DNA from: Ferrithrix thermotolerans DSM 19514
GTDB lineage: Bacteria; Actinomycetota; Acidimicrobiia; Acidimicrobiales; Ilumatobacteraceae
Reading direction: 5' to 3'
Length of the DNA stretch: 64,000 bases
Assembly (NCBI GenBank): GCA_945861025.1
Contig: CAMASN010000001.1
Coordinates: forward strand, 62,001-126,000
Shown: positions 14,891 through 22,037 of the stretch, in pieces
Numbering within the stretch: position 1 is the first letter of the stretch
Layout: each line of letters begins with the position of its first letter
Translations under genes and position numbers: made by a program
Notes under the pieces: model-generated
What the model was told of the DNA's origin: nothing
The model's database searches: none
Seen by the model: only the letters and a program-made list of their open reading frames with translations

Positions 14891-15649
14891 TCAGAACAAA
14901 CTGTCGGCAACTGGCAGACCACCGGCGTTGGTACCGTCTGGGTCCACCTCTGCGATGAGTTCGGCACCCTTATTGCGCACGCTGTTCACCGCAGTTGAGA
15001 CCCGATGCATCGCAAGGATGTCGTTTGGGGCGGGACGCAACAATTGACTGAGTTGGTTGGGATCGTCGATGTTTGGGTCGAGCCATTCGTGCCACGCCGT
15101 TGCCGGGAGAATCGCTGGCATGCGATCATGAACTGGCGCAATCGTGTCATTGGCCGCTGTGGTGATGATGGTGCAGCTATGCAACCATGGTCCGGATTCG
15201 GGCCCCGCCGTATCGCGCCACACCGTCCACAGACCAGCGACTGCCAGCAGGTGGCCGTCGGCTCGGTGGATAAACAGCGGTTGCTTCACGGGTTTACCTC
15301 TGGCACTCAGCGCTGCTGCGACTGGTGCCTGCCATTCGTAGAAACCGTCGATTGGAATAATGCACCTCCGCTTGCGCAGCAACCCTTTGAACGAGGGCTT
15401 ATCCGCCAGAGTCTCGGCACGCGCATTGATCATCGACGAACCGATCTTCATGTCCTTCGCCCAGACAGGCACGAGGCCCCAGTGAAAGGCTCGCACAGCA
15501 GGCTCGCCACCGTGTTCGTCAACCACTGCGTACACATCGGTGGTTGGCGCCACGTTGTAGTTCGCTGGCAAGGGGTCGCCCTCGAACGAGGCGCCGAAAA
15601 AACCAGCAATTTGTTGAGGGGTGCTCGTAGATACAACGCGTCCACACAC
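14891..15649 (-). CDS. SRAP domain protein (SOS response-associated peptidase, HMCES/YedK type)
   Basis: SRAP proteins covalently cap abasic sites in single-stranded DNA through an N-terminal cysteine. The 252-residue protein starts GTG-TGT, giving Met1-Cys2, which must be the mature N-terminus, and this decides the start. The other active-site residues are present: Asn75 (INARAET), Glu105 (DGFYEW) and His174 (VHDRMPAIL), equivalent to Asn/Glu/His of HMCES. No LexA-type box was seen at its start, so SOS control is not evident. The stop lies three bases from the convergent LLM gene. Confidence 0.93.
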   Translation of the reverse strand: MCGRVVSTSTPQQIAGFFGASFEGDPLPANYNVAPTTDVYAVVDEHGGEPAVRAFHWGLVPVWAKDMKIGSSMINARAETLADKPSFKGLLRKRRCIIPIDGFYEWQAPVAAALSARGKPVKQPLFIHRADGHLLAVAGLWTVWRDTAGPESGPWLHSCTIITTAANDTIAPVHDRMPAILPATAWHEWLDPNIDDPNQLSQLLRPAPNDILAMHRVSTAVNSVRNKGAELIAEVDPDGTNAGGLPVADSLF

Positions 15650-15724
15650 GCTTCGTACGGTATCAAGCGGTCGCCGTCGGCTACGTTTCTGACGCCCCGT
15701 CAGATTTAATGAGAGGAAGACGCA

Positions 15725-16897
15725 ATGACAGAACTCGGGTTTTTGCCCTTCGACGCAGACAACCATTACTACGAAGCAACCGACGCCTTCATCCGCCACA
15801 TCGAGCCATCGATGGCCAAGCGATGCATGCAGTGGGTTGAGCTCGACGGTCGGCAACGCCTGCTTGTTGGCGGTGCGATCAACCGGTTCATCCCGAACCC
15901 AACGTTTAATCCGGTCTCGAAGCCAGGCGCGCTCGATTTGTACTTCCGCGGCAAGGTGGCCGGATCAGACCTTAAGTCGATGTTCGGCGAACTCGATCAG
16001 ATCAGCCCGGCCTATCGCGACCGCGATGCTCGCCTCGCGTTGATGACCGAACAGGGTCTCGACTCAGCCTTCTTTTTTCCCACCCTTGGCGTAGGAATGG
16101 AAGAATCGCTCAAGCACGACATTCCAGCGCTGACCGCTGCGTTTCGCGCATTCAATCGCTGGGTCGACGACGACTGGGGCTTTGCCTACAAGAACTCGAT
16201 TTACGCAGCGCCATACATCACCTTGGCCGATCCACAGTGGGCGCTCGAAGAACTCAACTGGGCGATCGGCCGCAATGTGCGCATCATCGTGATGCGCACC
16301 GCACCGGTGCCTATTGCGGGCGGCCTCACCCGCTCCCCCGGAGACACGGTGTACGACCCATTCTGGGCGCGTGCCGCCGAAGCAGGTGTCACGGTTGCGT
16401 TCCACTCGGGCGACGCCGGCTATGGCAAGTACATCGACGACTGGGAACCGGGCGGCGCATTCGAGGCATTCAAGTTCTCCGCGCTGCGCACCATGACGAG
16501 CGATCGGGCACCATTCGACATGTTTGCGGCGCTCGTGTGCCACGGCGTGTTTTCTCGTCACCCCGACCTTCGCTGCGCCAGCATTGAGGCCGGCAGCGAA
16601 TGGGTGCAGCCGCTCCTGAAGAAGTTCAAGAAGGCCTACTCCCAAAACCCGTACATGTTCCCAAGCGATCCAATCCAGCAGTTCCGTGACCATGTGTGGG
16701 TGGCGCCGTTCTACGAAGACGACATCCGCAATCTCGCCGATGCCATCGGAACCGAGCGCGTGCTGTTTGGCAGCGACTTCCCACACGCTGAGGGTCTCGC
16801 TGTGCCAGTCGCATTCATCAACGATCTACACGGCTTCACCGACCAAGAGGTTCGCCTCATCATGCGTGACAACGCTCGCGAACTCATCGGAGTCTGA
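15725..16897 (+). CDS. Amidohydrolase family 2 (ACMSD-like) metal-dependent hydrolase
   Basis: A 390-residue TIM-barrel amidohydrolase. It keeps an N-terminal DADNHYYE segment, a central VAFHSGDAG (metal-ligand His region), SIEAGSEWVQPLL, and the C-terminal metal-site motif LFGSDFPHAEG. Family members hydrolyse or decarboxylate small ring-cleavage products; the substrate here is unknown. A good ribosome-binding site (GAGAGGAAG at 15711-15719) precedes the ATG. The next gene starts two bases after its stop and encodes a second, degenerate member, so the two products may act together. Confidence 0.88.
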   Translation: MTELGFLPFDADNHYYEATDAFIRHIEPSMAKRCMQWVELDGRQRLLVGGAINRFIPNPTFNPVSKPGALDLYFRGKVAGSDLKSMFGELDQISPAYRDRDARLALMTEQGLDSAFFFPTLGVGMEESLKHDIPALTAAFRAFNRWVDDDWGFAYKNSIYAAPYITLADPQWALEELNWAIGRNVRIIVMRTAPVPIAGGLTRSPGDTVYDPFWARAAEAGVTVAFHSGDAGYGKYIDDWEPGGAFEAFKFSALRTMTSDRAPFDMFAALVCHGVFSRHPDLRCASIEAGSEWVQPLLKKFKKAYSQNPYMFPSDPIQQFRDHVWVAPFYEDDIRNLADAIGTERVLFGSDFPHAEGLAVPVAFINDLHGFTDQEVRLIMRDNARELIGV

Positions 16898-17805: not shown

Positions 17806-19308
17806 CTAGCCAACGGCCCATGTGTTCACGGCATACGCGCCGTTGGCATTCACCTGAACCACTGCGTCGGAGGTAACCACTGGCGTGCCCGTGGTGGTCA
17901 TGCTCTTCAGGCGAAGCACCAACTGAGTCACCACTTCGGACACACCAATCTTGAACTTGGCTGGGCTATCACCGGGCATTTCGATGGTTCGAGCCAACAC
18001 GCCACCTTCGAAGTTAATCGCTGCCTTGGCGCCGAGGCCGGAGCCAATCGAGATCACGAATCGTCCTTGCGGCACGTCGACATATCCGGGCACCGAAACT
18101 GTGGCGGTTGTCAGCTGGGTCAGATTGACCTCGACGATGGCGTCGTTGTCGGGAACAGCGGGCACCAAGGTTGATGGCCGATACTTGTTCAGGGTTGCCG
18201 CCCCAAACGTGGTGGCGCCTGTGGGAGCCAACGAATACGGCACGTACAACACACCCGGCTGATCGAGGTCGCCTATTGAATTGTTGAGGTCTGAGTTCGG
18301 CAAATCGCCGTTTACCGACATGATGTTCACCGTCGCCGATGGCAATGTGTTCGTGTCGGTTGAGCTCACATAGCGCTGGTTAAACACCAAGCTGATCGAG
18401 TCGGTCACTGCACCGGTGTAGGGCACAGAGTTCTTCACCACGAGGCGCCCTGCCATGCCGAAGACGAAGGTTGAACCCAGCCCGGTGATGTTGTGAGTCG
18501 CTGGAGCGTTTACTGAATAGAACGCAGCGAACTGATCCGTCGTGCAGCCCTCAACTCCGCCGCCTCCGACGACGACGTTTGCGTTGTCGGTGATGGTGAT
18601 CGAATTCTCGAAGTAATAGATACCAGAGGTGAAGTAGACCGGCGTCGACCCAGAGATCACGATGGGGTCAACGTATGTGCCTGGGAAGTAGACCTTGCAC
18701 GCATCGAACCCCTCAGGCATGTCATACGCCATTGCCGAACGAGGGCTCAGCGCATGCACCGGCAGGTTTGGCGACCAGATTGTGTCGATGCTTCGGGTGA
18801 GGCTTGCCACATTGCGCCACGCACGAATGTCACTTTGCCCGGACCCCGGGTACACAGCGTGAACATTGGTCGAAGACGGCGTATAGGCCCCAGGGAGTGC
18901 AATCCCCGCCTGAATCGAGGTCGTACCGTATGGCCGCTTGGTTTCGTCCTCTGAATAGTTCACGGCCATCAAGGCGCACGTGGTTTGCACTGGCACGAGC
19001 AACGATGGGCTGGCGAGAACGGGGTTCAGGTTCACTCCTGCCTTGTCCTGATTGCAGGCCTTAAACAGCGCGACAGGATCAGCGAGAACTGTGCGCAGAC
19101 CGCCCTTCACCGCTTCTAGGCGCTGCGCTTTGTTTTCAACGAGCCGGCTAGCTCGTGTGACCGAGACCGCGTACGTGAGCATTGGGGTCACGATCAACGT
19201 GGCAACGATAACGACAACAAGCGACATGATGAGCGCCGAACCTTCGTCGCCGGCGGCCATCGCGCGTTGCTCGCGGAGTGCCTCGAGCCTTCGCTTGATC
19301 ATGCTCAT
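17806..19308 (-). CDS. PilX-like pilus assembly/minor pilin protein with large C-terminal domain
   Basis: A 500-residue protein with a short basic leader, then a PilX-N-like hydrophobic helix (DEGSALIMSLVVVIVATLIVTPM, no Glu at +5), followed by a long secreted region. The middle part has beta-rich segments (PVYFTSGIYYFENSITI, VVVGGGGVEG) and the C-terminal part has FVISIGSGLGAKAAINFEGGVLARTIEM. This is typical of large exported PilX-type proteins in type IV pilus operons. The ATG at 19308 overlaps the upstream vWA-pilin stop (ATGA), fixing the start over one seven codons earlier. Last gene of the three-gene pilin operon. Confidence 0.75.
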   Translation of the reverse strand: MSMIKRRLEALREQRAMAAGDEGSALIMSLVVVIVATLIVTPMLTYAVSVTRASRLVENKAQRLEAVKGGLRTVLADPVALFKACNQDKAGVNLNPVLASPSLLVPVQTTCALMAVNYSEDETKRPYGTTSIQAGIALPGAYTPSSTNVHAVYPGSGQSDIRAWRNVASLTRSIDTIWSPNLPVHALSPRSAMAYDMPEGFDACKVYFPGTYVDPIVISGSTPVYFTSGIYYFENSITITDNANVVVGGGGVEGCTTDQFAAFYSVNAPATHNITGLGSTFVFGMAGRLVVKNSVPYTGAVTDSISLVFNQRYVSSTDTNTLPSATVNIMSVNGDLPNSDLNNSIGDLDQPGVLYVPYSLAPTGATTFGAATLNKYRPSTLVPAVPDNDAIVEVNLTQLTTATVSVPGYVDVPQGRFVISIGSGLGAKAAINFEGGVLARTIEMPGDSPAKFKIGVSEVVTQLVLRLKSMTTTGTPVVTSDAVVQVNANGAYAVNTWAVG

Positions 19309-22037
19309 CGGGTCACCGTCTGCACACATGACACAGCTTCGTTGGCCGACACCTTCACTCGGATGCCCGAGAAGATCGGGCTGGCGGTTGACACCAACGT
19401 AAATGCTCGCGGGCTAATGCCGGCCTTACAGCTCCACGTACCTGAGGTGTAGCCCGAAAGGTCAGAAAGGTTCAACGGCTGAATCTCGACAGTTCGAAAC
19501 GTGCCGTCGCTGATGTTGAGGTCGAAGGTGCCGCTCGAGAACTGCTTCGTAGTGGTCACGACGGTCATATCTGACACCAACGCCGTGCCAGCCGAGTCGG
19601 TAAGCGCTGTCTTTTGATAGGTGAACGGATCTGCGGCCGACGTGCTGCCCACCTTGGTTTGCAGGGTCAACGTGCCACCACATTGCGACAGAGCAATGGT
19701 CTGCAGAGCGAGCCCAAAATTGGTGTAGTCGGGAGAGATGTACATGTTCGCGGTCAGCGCATTGGTGTACGTACCGCCTACCAGAGTTGCTGGCACGCCC
19801 GTGTCTGAATTGGCCACCAGCCTCGCCAAGATCTTGGCGCCGGTGACCGTTGAGGTGACGGCTGCGTCATAGGCCGTGTACGGCAGGCTGTACTGCTTGG
19901 CTGAACGTGACCAACTGGAATCGCTACTGCTGTAGCCAGTGCTGCTGGTGGTCACCGGATCCGAGAGCGAGTACGGCGACGTGTAGCTCTTACCGGTCCA
20001 CCCGTCGGATGAATCGCTGTCAGGCTGCCCCGGATTCGCAGCGGTGTAGAGGCTCTGGTTCGTCACGGTTGGCACAGCATTCGTCGCCCATGAGGTAGTT
20101 GGGTTGGCGATAGCCGAATCTGTCAGGTTGACCGATCGAGCAAACGAGTACGGTTCGCTGAACGCAGCTCGTGATGAGCTCGAGAGTGATGTGGATGATG
20201 TAGCCGAGGTGTTGATTTCCCAATACGTGTAGGGCGACGTGTATTGGCGACCCGCAGACCAGCCGTCACTTCCATCGTTCACCGGGTTCGCAGCGACATC
20301 TTGGGCGGTGAACAAGGTCAAGTTGGTCGAGCCCGTTGATGGAGCCGTCCACGTGGTGGCCATGTCTTGCGACGCAATCGCACTCGCGTTGAGAGATGAC
20401 TTGGATAGACGGAATGGAGCGCTGAAGCGAAGCCGGCGCTTACCATTTGACGTGCCGAGAGAACTGCTCGTAGAGGCATTGGGGTCGTCGACCCAAACCG
20501 GCGAATCCGTGGAGCCGGTGTTCTTTTCCATGTGGTACCACCGGGTGACGGTGCTGTCAGCGTGGTAACCCTTTTCTATGTGGTAATAGCGCGAGTACGC
20601 AAGGTGGTAGCTGCGCGTGTAGTTGTAGTGGTAGCCAGGCACGCTTGAGGTCCAGGTTTGGTTGCCGCTGATGCCGAGGCCAACGCCCACGCCGATGAAG
20701 CGAGTTGTGTCGCGGAAGGCCGCTGCGATCAAGTTGGCGCGGTCGAAGCCTTGCTGTTGATACTGACCATTTACCGTGGTTGAGTAGCCGGGCTGAGCCG
20801 CCGGCGGATCTGCAGGAATTGAGCTCGACGAGCTGTTCAAACGCGAGTTGGTCGGCACTCCGTCGGTAAAGAACACAACCATGCCGGGGAGGTCTTGAGC
20901 GACTGTTCCGTCGGCGTTGTAGAACGTGCGGAACATTGCGTCTTCCCAGTTGGTGTATCCAGCGGGATAGGTCATGTTCGTTACTTCGCTCAGCAACGCG
21001 TTGGCCTCCGAGGTGTTGAGCATGTCGTACGTGGTCGTCCATTCGGGCGCAGTTGCGCCGACCGTGCTGGCGATGGTGTCGAACGGCACGAGCTTTAAGC
21101 GCACCGGGGTACCAACGAACATCGTGACGAACTGGCCAACCGCGGTCTTCACCTTGGCGAAGTCTGCAGCGCCAATCGAGCCGGAGCGGTCCACGATCAG
21201 CGTGATCGACCCACCGCACAACGAGCGTGCCGCAATCAGCGACGGCGCACCCTGCATGCTGGTCGAGTCGATCAGCGTACGGTTTGTGCCACCAGCGCTC
21301 AGGCTGATCTGGTTCGTTCCGCCGCCAGCGCCTGCCGACTTTCCGCCGCCGTTCACGGTGACGACCACTCGCTGGGCATTCTTCACAGCAACGGCCGGTG
21401 CGTCGCCTTCGATGGTGGTGACCGTTGGGTCAATCGCCAACGGGTCAGGGGGTGTGCTCACCTTAATGATCCAGTCAGGGACGGTGACGCCAGCGGTGAA
21501 GTTGCCATCTGGCGGTGAATCAAGATTGTGCAGCACGACAATGGTGCGACAGGTAACGGAGCCTTCGGTCTGGTCGCACTGCACCCGAATAAGTTGGTAT
21601 TCGTCGCCAACCAGCACGTAACGGTACGAGACCTGGGTCAGCTTGGTCACTGACTGGCCACTGCTGTTCGCAACAAGCGTGCTCCACGAAAGCATCATCG
21701 CATTCGAGCCGCCAACATCGGCACCAACGGGGCAGGCTCCAAAACATGGGTCGATGCTGGGCGACGTGTCGACGTTCTGTCCCGCCGAAGCAAGATCACC
21801 AGGGATCCACAGGCCAGCGCCGTTTTCGGCGCGAGCGTTGTTGAGCCGACCATTACTCGTCGACTGTTGGTTCAAAATGACCACGACTGCGCCCGACAGC
21901 GCAGTTGCGATAATGCCGGTGAGCGCTATTGCAATAAGCAGCTCAACAAGTGTCATTCCCTCGTCGCGGCCAGCCACACGATTCGTGCGCAGTTTGCGGG
22001 CTAGGCGCGACTTACGGAGGAATGGGTGTTTACACAT
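19305..22037 (-). CDS. Modular type IV pilin with von Willebrand factor A domain
   Basis: A 910-residue prepilin. The leader ends at Gly27, followed by MTLVELLIAIALTGIIATAL with Glu at +5 (Glu32), so prepilin peptidase should process it. A short pilin module (to about 270) is followed by a vWA domain with a full MIDAS: DRSGS (Asp283, Ser285, Ser287), Thr362 in GYTNWEDAM, and Asp392 in FFTDGVP. Between the last vWA strands (about 457-725) lies a Ser/Thr/Tyr-rich insertion with a YH-rich tract (469-502) and about two and a half imperfect repeats carrying SDGW...YTSPY. PilY1/PilC tips and streptococcal PilB use vWA domains in adhesion, so a tip adhesin is likely. It overlaps the upstream pilin gene by 8 bases. 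Confidence 0.85.
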   Translation of the reverse strand: MCKHPFLRKSRLARKLRTNRVAGRDEGMTLVELLIAIALTGIIATALSGAVVVILNQQSTSNGRLNNARAENGAGLWIPGDLASAGQNVDTSPSIDPCFGACPVGADVGGSNAMMLSWSTLVANSSGQSVTKLTQVSYRYVLVGDEYQLIRVQCDQTEGSVTCRTIVVLHNLDSPPDGNFTAGVTVPDWIIKVSTPPDPLAIDPTVTTIEGDAPAVAVKNAQRVVVTVNGGGKSAGAGGGTNQISLSAGGTNRTLIDSTSMQGAPSLIAARSLCGGSITLIVDRSGSIGAADFAKVKTAVGQFVTMFVGTPVRLKLVPFDTIASTVGATAPEWTTTYDMLNTSEANALLSEVTNMTYPAGYTNWEDAMFRTFYNADGTVAQDLPGMVVFFTDGVPTNSRLNSSSSSIPADPPAAQPGYSTTVNGQYQQQGFDRANLIAAAFRDTTRFIGVGVGLGISGNQTWTSSVPGYHYNYTRSYHLAYSRYYHIEKGYHADSTVTRWYHMEKNTGSTDSPVWVDDPNASTSSSLGTSNGKRRLRFSAPFRLSKSSLNASAIASQDMATTWTAPSTGSTNLTLFTAQDVAANPVNDGSDGWSAGRQYTSPYTYWEINTSATSSTSLSSSSRAAFSEPYSFARSVNLTDSAIANPTTSWATNAVPTVTNQSLYTAANPGQPDSDSSDGWTGKSYTSPYSLSDPVTTSSTGYSSSDSSWSRSAKQYSLPYTAYDAAVTSTVTGAKILARLVANSDTGVPATLVGGTYTNALTANMYISPDYTNFGLALQTIALSQCGGTLTLQTKVGSTSAADPFTYQKTALTDSAGTALVSDMTVVTTTKQFSSGTFDLNISDGTFRTVEIQPLNLSDLSGYTSGTWSCKAGISPRAFTLVSTASPIFSGIRVKVSANEAVSCVQTVTR

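Follow-up and report, generated by a model that had tools for sequence, protein, structure and literature searches.

In this study we describe a gene for a large modular prepilin in a window of 64,000 nucleotides, meaning the whole stretch of DNA analysed, from Ferrithrix thermotolerans DSM 19514 (assembly GCA_945861025.1, contig CAMASN010000001.1, positions 62,001 to 126,000). The gene carries a von Willebrand factor A (vWA) domain, and is the middle one of three overlapping genes which form a minor-pilin operon (Table 1). What can be read from the sequence itself is a prepilin signal, a complete metal ion-dependent adhesion site (MIDAS), a single vWA split by an insertion, the site of this insertion and its repeats, the operon, and the presence and linkage of pilus genes. 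In our view, the protein is quite probably a minor modular type IVa pilin, serving as a tip adhesin with a repeat-built, tyrosine- and histidine-rich arm beside the MIDAS.

Table 1. Features of the vWA prepilin gene and its operon, with positions counted from the first letter of the window.
Feature	Residues or length	Positions	Strand	Details	Basis
First operon gene, GspI/PilV-like minor prepilin	180 aa	22030..22572	(-)	8-base overlap with vWA gene	
vWA modular prepilin, whole gene	910 aa	19305..22037	(-)		open reading frame, Pfam, family alignment
Hydrophilic class III leader	1-27	21957..22037	(-)	cleavage after G27	motif; family models
Pilin module (alpha1 and head)	28-271	21225..21956	(-)	cysteine pairs C98/C102 and C154/C163	
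vWA, first part (beta1 to beta5)	272-453	20679..21224	(-)	begins at invariant C274	
MIDAS motif 1	D283-x-S285-x-S287	21177..21191	(-)		alignment
MIDAS threonine	T362	20952..20954	(-)		alignment
MIDAS aspartate	D392	20862..20864	(-)		alignment
Insertion in the beta5-alpha6 loop	454-734 (281 aa)	19836..20678	(-)	Ser/Thr/Tyr-rich repeats, no cysteine	
Tyr/His-rich repeats	468-505	20523..20636	(-)	GYHYNYTRSYHLAYSR...	24/48-nt tandem arrays in relatives
~34-aa repeat, partial copy	582-606	20220..20294	(-)	...DGW....YTSPYTYW	
~34-aa repeat, second copy	659-690	19968..20063	(-)		
vWA, closing part (alpha6, beta6, alpha7)	735-786	19680..19835	(-)	ends at invariant C786	
C-terminal prealbumin/SpaA-like domain	787-910	19308..19679	(-)	cysteine pair C870/C904	weak fold assignment
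Third operon gene, GspK/PilX-like	507 aa	17806..19329	(-)	N-terminus DEG/SALIMSLVVV; 25-base overlap with vWA gene	

The reading frame starts with an ATG and is unbroken over its 910 residues. A prepilin cleavage site, already proposed in the initial annotation, is borne out by the motif RDEG/MTLVELLIAIALTG, with a glutamate at position +5 and a hydrophobic alpha1. Two prepilin models scored above their curated cut-offs, Pfam N_methyl (PF07963, E=3.5e-5, 23.6 bits, cut-off 21.2) and NCBIfam IV_pilin_GFxxxE (TIGR02532, 20.9, cut-off 16.3). Neither G27 nor E32 varies among 16 aligned family members, of which the others are 29-53% identical to the 910-residue protein, and the pilin region of 244 residues is conserved within the family. 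A pilin N-terminal motif is thus combined with a module, the vWA, which is not pilus-specific, and this combination characterizes the modular pilins. The likeness to PilY1/PilC-type proteins, drawn in the initial annotation, had to be given up. Such an identity was rejected based on the prepilin signal and on the absence from the protein of PF05567, the C-terminal beta-propeller of PilY1; the protein resembles instead the modular pilin PilB of Streptococcus sanguinis. The PF05567 search of the whole genome carries no information, as this model matched in none of the controls.

The vWA is recognized by Pfam (VWA, E=5.7e-7, above the curated cut-off). Its MIDAS, D283-R-S285-G-S287 with T362 and D392, is complete, as previously noted. 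All five ligands are invariant across the 16 aligned members, which argues against a chance motif, and by analogy the site likely binds a metal and a ligand. Residues 270-457 and 725-800 had been suggested to form one vWA around a 270-residue insertion at 457-725. Judged by the sequence, both the insertion and the single domain hold, with slightly shifted edges. Strand beta5 (FIGVGVG) stops at residue 453 and conservation resumes with a helix (KILARLVAN) at 735, which places the insertion better at 454-734. The C-terminal vWA segment covers about 735-786, and a separate domain follows at 787-910.

The unity of the vWA was examined with a core profile of 260 positions, built from 13 relatives with the insertion excised and then run against further vWA proteins from the class. 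A vWA protein from outside the family and without the insertion (L079) aligned as a single domain over positions 6-259 (E=3.2e-31). Two insertion-poor pilins (L083 and L084) likewise gave single-domain alignments over the whole core, at about 1e-53. Because all three align over both halves, the segment after the insertion appears to be the ordinary end of the same domain and, judged by its sequence, the protein has one vWA split by an insertion. Profile searches of the PDB retrieved the vWA structures of vertebrate integrins, MIC2, TRAP and a bacterial adhesin (9das, E=1.6e-12). The significant matches span the first vWA part only; with MIC2, a second, statistically negligible alignment matches the segment after the insertion to the final helix and cysteine of the MIC2 vWA. 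The domain is bracketed by two invariant cysteines, C274 directly before beta1 and C786 after the last helix. A disulphide is found at the same two places in the A1 and A3 domains of the von Willebrand factor, and therefore a C274-C786 bond probably locks the split vWA. The C-terminal domain also has a parallel, as prealbumin-like neighbour domains occur in the pilus-tip protein RrgA of Streptococcus pneumoniae.

The insertion is the fastest-changing part of the protein between close relatives. In two of them (L040 and L041), the pilin, the first vWA part and the C-terminal part share 86-88% identity and the short closing vWA part 77%, while their insertions have 607 and 469 residues and share 71% identity where aligned. 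Among all homologues, the inserted length ranges from 24 to 607 residues at a single fixed site, and the vWA core is constant, with 171-199 residues before this site and usually about 51 after it. Members with just 24-43 residues at the site indicate that the vWA can be almost uninterrupted. One relative (G027) carries two vWA pilin genes almost without insertion (640 and 657 aa) within 9 kb (L051:8107-16620), and its genome has four matching places.

Two kinds of repeats build the insertion. The first part is Tyr/His-rich, with GYHYNYTRSYHLAYSRYYHIEKGYHADSTVTRWYHMEK in the protein described here, and RSFHYQ hexads or xYHYxYTH octads in relatives. The second part contains a unit of ~34 residues with the consensus WTSVTQATYNAANTTADSTDGWRARTYSSPYTSW (pattern W..T..Y..NTTADSTDGWR....YS.PY..W), present in two clear copies here and in ten in a relative (L047). 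At the DNA level, the repeats of relatives appear as tandem arrays of 18, 24, 48, 90-96, 183 and 198 nt. The scan of the gene in the window found no tandem or other repeat, its copies having diverged beyond recognition at this level. No family in Pfam, NCBIfam, PHROG or the PDB matched the insertion. An assembly error or a frameshift was rejected as its source: the reading frame is intact, a 97% identical sister (the fragment L039 of a close relative) spans residues 554-910 in the same frame and gap-free, and the GC content of the insertion (0.587) is similar to that of the gene (0.591). A recent origin from a mobile element is also not supported, given the lack of DNA-level repeats in the gene and the graded lengths among relatives.

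In the vWA topology, the metal site lies at the C-terminal edge of the sheet, and the loop leaving the end of beta5 is on the same face. This would put the insertion next to the metal site, and from this topology we infer that it sits on the MIDAS face. Whether such an arm takes part in binding can be debated. The insertion could be a passive Ser/Thr-rich spacer or a glycan-bearing loop, in agreement with a content of 44% Ser, Thr, Asn and Gly, with the absence of cysteine from the insertion of every member, and with a length that is very variable and close to nil in some members. We hold this to be possible, but doubtful, because the two ordered repeat families keep their Trp, Tyr, Asp-Gly-Trp and Pro-Tyr positions across genera, which is unusual for spacers, and because a Tyr-rich vWA finger has a tested role in the PilY1-type protein ComC of Acinetobacter baumannii. 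More speculatively, the vWA of this pilin family may be an unchanging base that carries, on the MIDAS face, a hypervariable repeat arm built by recombination, and lengthened, shortened or reshaped between close relatives by tandem duplication of DNA. This would alter the ligand of the tip, as in a contingency-type adhesin. If so, both repeat families, the Tyr/His octapeptides or hexapeptides and the ~34-residue unit, would be new binding modules.

Pilus machinery, on whose presence the initial annotation had made its proposal depend, was found in the genome. Contig C42 encodes one major pilin, PilT, PilD, PilC, and a PilB with a MshEN domain, which together make up a type IVa set. A single prepilin peptidase was detected (C42:11825-12154, A24_N and Peptidase_A24). 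The whole genome yielded only three N_methyl prepilins, two of them from the vWA operon. In relatives, the vWA pilin is directly linked to such machinery. In one of them (L048), the operon comes right after pilB and pilC, in the order pilB-pilC-pilin-vWA pilin. In another (L045), the major pilin, three minor pilins, including the vWA pilin and the K-like one, PilT, PilD, PilC and PilB are encoded inside 12 kb. The vWA pilin and PilC co-occur within the family, with both in 14 genomes, PilC alone in four, the vWA pilin alone in one and neither in 18 (Fisher p=7e-6, uncorrected for kinship); among the four with PilC alone are genomes with contig-edge fragments. At least one relative from the same genus (G002) has a homologous pilin module of 208 residues without a vWA, in minor-pilin genes beside PilT (L054:8689-9952). 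Therefore, the pilin can exist without the vWA graft, which suggests that the tip module was gained or lost.

The genome also has a second system, a Tad-type locus (C8:12004-14764) and, together with other points, this weighs against our interpretation. In this genome, a long distance separates the operon from the C42 cluster. No known homologue was recognized for the pilin head, the match to known pilins being limited to the N-terminal helix alpha1. AlphaFold2 with a single sequence as input, run on the whole protein and on residues 266-457, reached mean pLDDT (predicted local distance difference test) values of 33.5 and 34.2, too low to speak for or against a closed vWA, so that the position of the insertion on the MIDAS face rests on vWA topology. 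Finally, no PilM or PilN was detected (PF11104 and PF05137, E<=0.001) in this 95.6% complete genome, an absence that counts little, as the PilN model matches just 2 of 14 controls. Either the machinery is reduced to a minimum, or it has diverged too far to be recognized. PilM and PilN were likewise not recognized in the complete-looking L045 locus. A gene for a coiled-coil-like protein of ~440 residues lies beside pilB (L035:15346-16668, Apolipoprotein-like match), in a conserved position, and could be a substitute for PilM/PilN.

With a TadA-like ATPase and two TadB/TadC-like proteins encoded on C8, the vWA protein might serve a Tad-type pilus, or else a secretion pseudopilus, instead of the type IVa pilus. 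The sole prepilin peptidase found could process the prepilins of both systems, and the vWA protein CpaL of Caulobacter crescentus is a Tad component. Yet we find this highly improbable, since the operon sits inside the pilB-pilC-pilT-pilD cluster in relatives, the protein carries an N_methyl-type prepilin motif, and the genome encodes PilT. A role as a tip for DNA uptake (competence), instead of surface adhesion, would be in line with the many monoderm type IV filaments that serve transformation, and with a sub-threshold ComP match of the major pilin (E=0.084). This too is improbable, as proteins or surfaces are the targets of the vWA/MIDAS modules characterized.

The two other operon genes owe their I-like and K-like labels to weak family scores and to the signal sequence. 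A gene order of I-J-K is that of known tip complexes. The 507-residue product of the third gene had no library match; it contains a long Gly/Val/Asn-rich region which looks beta-solenoid-like by eye, and two of its six homologues have fibronectin type III domains. Elsewhere in the window, a SRAP-family protein (PF02586, E=3e-73) is encoded at 14891-15856 on the reverse strand, and L040 and L041 likewise have a SRAP-like gene close to the vWA pilin operon.

Based on the operon context and on the homology of design, a placement at the pilus tip is the likeliest reading. PilD, the prepilin peptidase, would cut after G27, and the pilin module would enter a minor-pilin complex of three subunits, one GspI/PilV-like, one J/W-like (the vWA protein) and one GspK/PilX-like. 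This complex would start and cap a type IVa pilus driven by PilB, PilC and PilT, and thus hold the vWA at the tip. There, a divalent metal on D283, S285, S287, T362 and D392 would form the ligand site. The 281 inserted residues would exit between beta5 and alpha6 on the MIDAS face as an extended arm, adding to or tuning the contact with the ligand, a function suggested by the finger of A. baumannii ComC. The chain would then return to complete the vWA with alpha6, beta6 and alpha7, probably locked by the disulphide, and continue into the prealbumin-like domain. The vWA, metal and arm could contact a surface, a glycan or a protein, as proposed by analogy with S. sanguinis PilB, and retraction by PilT would pull the cell, resulting in adhesion or twitching.

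The main rival to this tip adhesin is a primer or force sensor within the tip complex, in which the vWA is reshaped by the retraction force and reports surface contact, ligand binding being incidental. CpaL, likewise a minor pilin whose vWA is split, has effects on piliation and on the sensing of surfaces, and a sensor or assembly role was proposed for it (PMC12607857); a reshaping of the vWA under force was likewise proposed for PilY1. The MshEN domain of PilB is of the c-di-GMP type, which makes it probable that the pilus is regulated by c-di-GMP, and this would suit a sensor. We nevertheless judge a sensor unlikely, because close relatives differ strongly in the length and sequence of the insertion and have a conserved core, which better fits changing ligands outside the cell.

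The initial annotation considered the setting undescribed, which proved too broad. Among modular pilins of monoderms and diderms, the vWA type ranks with the 15 commonest architectures (PMC8179133), a pilin with a split vWA is known in CpaL (PMC12607857), and adhesive type IV pili are known from the actinobacterium Actinoplanes, as cited in PMC8325347. The closest design is that of S. sanguinis PilB, a monoderm minor type IV pilin in which a vWA with intact MIDAS is grafted after the pilin module and arms protrude beside the MIDAS, which is needed for adhesion and twitching (PMC8179133). In contrast, our protein is about twice as large, with a 281-residue repeat insertion (up to 607 residues in relatives) and an additional C-terminal prealbumin-like domain. 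S. sanguinis PilB gave no sequence match among the PDB profile hits of the 910-residue protein. CpaL is also minor pilin-like, its single vWA is interrupted by an insertion, and models place it at the pilus tip (PMC12607857). However, it belongs to a Tad pilus, and its insertion (204-383) precedes the Thr and Asp of the MIDAS, unlike the one described here, which follows the MIDAS Asp, between beta5 and alpha6. A. baumannii ComC is a type IVa vWA tip adhesin with a lineage-specific Tyr-rich finger within the vWA, whose removal impairs adhesion, twitching and DNA uptake (PMC10374093). Being PilY1-type, it is not a pilin, and the finger has about 90 residues and no long tandem-repeat array. Lastly, RrgA of S. 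pneumoniae is a pilus-tip vWA protein with inserted arms beside the MIDAS (compared in PMC8179133), but its pilus is assembled by sortase, in an unrelated manner.

Homologues were found in 19 of the 61 related genomes searched, the genome described here included. The matches to the profile of these proteins were confined to the taxonomic family of the window, both at E<=1e-50 among 296 genomes of the class and at E<=1e-20 among 396 genomes of the phylum. One close relative is named, an Acidimicrobiaceae metagenome-assembled genome (isolate ZH-Jul18-164). No relative was found on plasmids, a scan of viral contigs gave no further ones, and a search of the literature gave no specific result for type IV pili in this group. 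The design of a modular pilin with a split vWA is already known from other bacteria. What appear to be new are the lineage, the site of the insertion after the metal-binding Asp, the repeat families, the large and fast variation in length, and the compact pilus set.

The tips of type IVa pili are poorly known beyond Firmicutes and Proteobacteria. Our results point to one actinobacterial family (Ilumatobacteraceae-like, class Acidimicrobiia) with a compact pilus set, and a tip candidate which is variable at one place only, the repeat arm by the metal site of the vWA. Seen alongside A. baumannii ComC and Caulobacter CpaL, this suggests a general rule, in which the tips of unrelated systems gain specificity through insertions in loops of a vWA that is itself conserved. 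Such a rule is testable on the natural series found here, with 24 to 607 residues at a single site.

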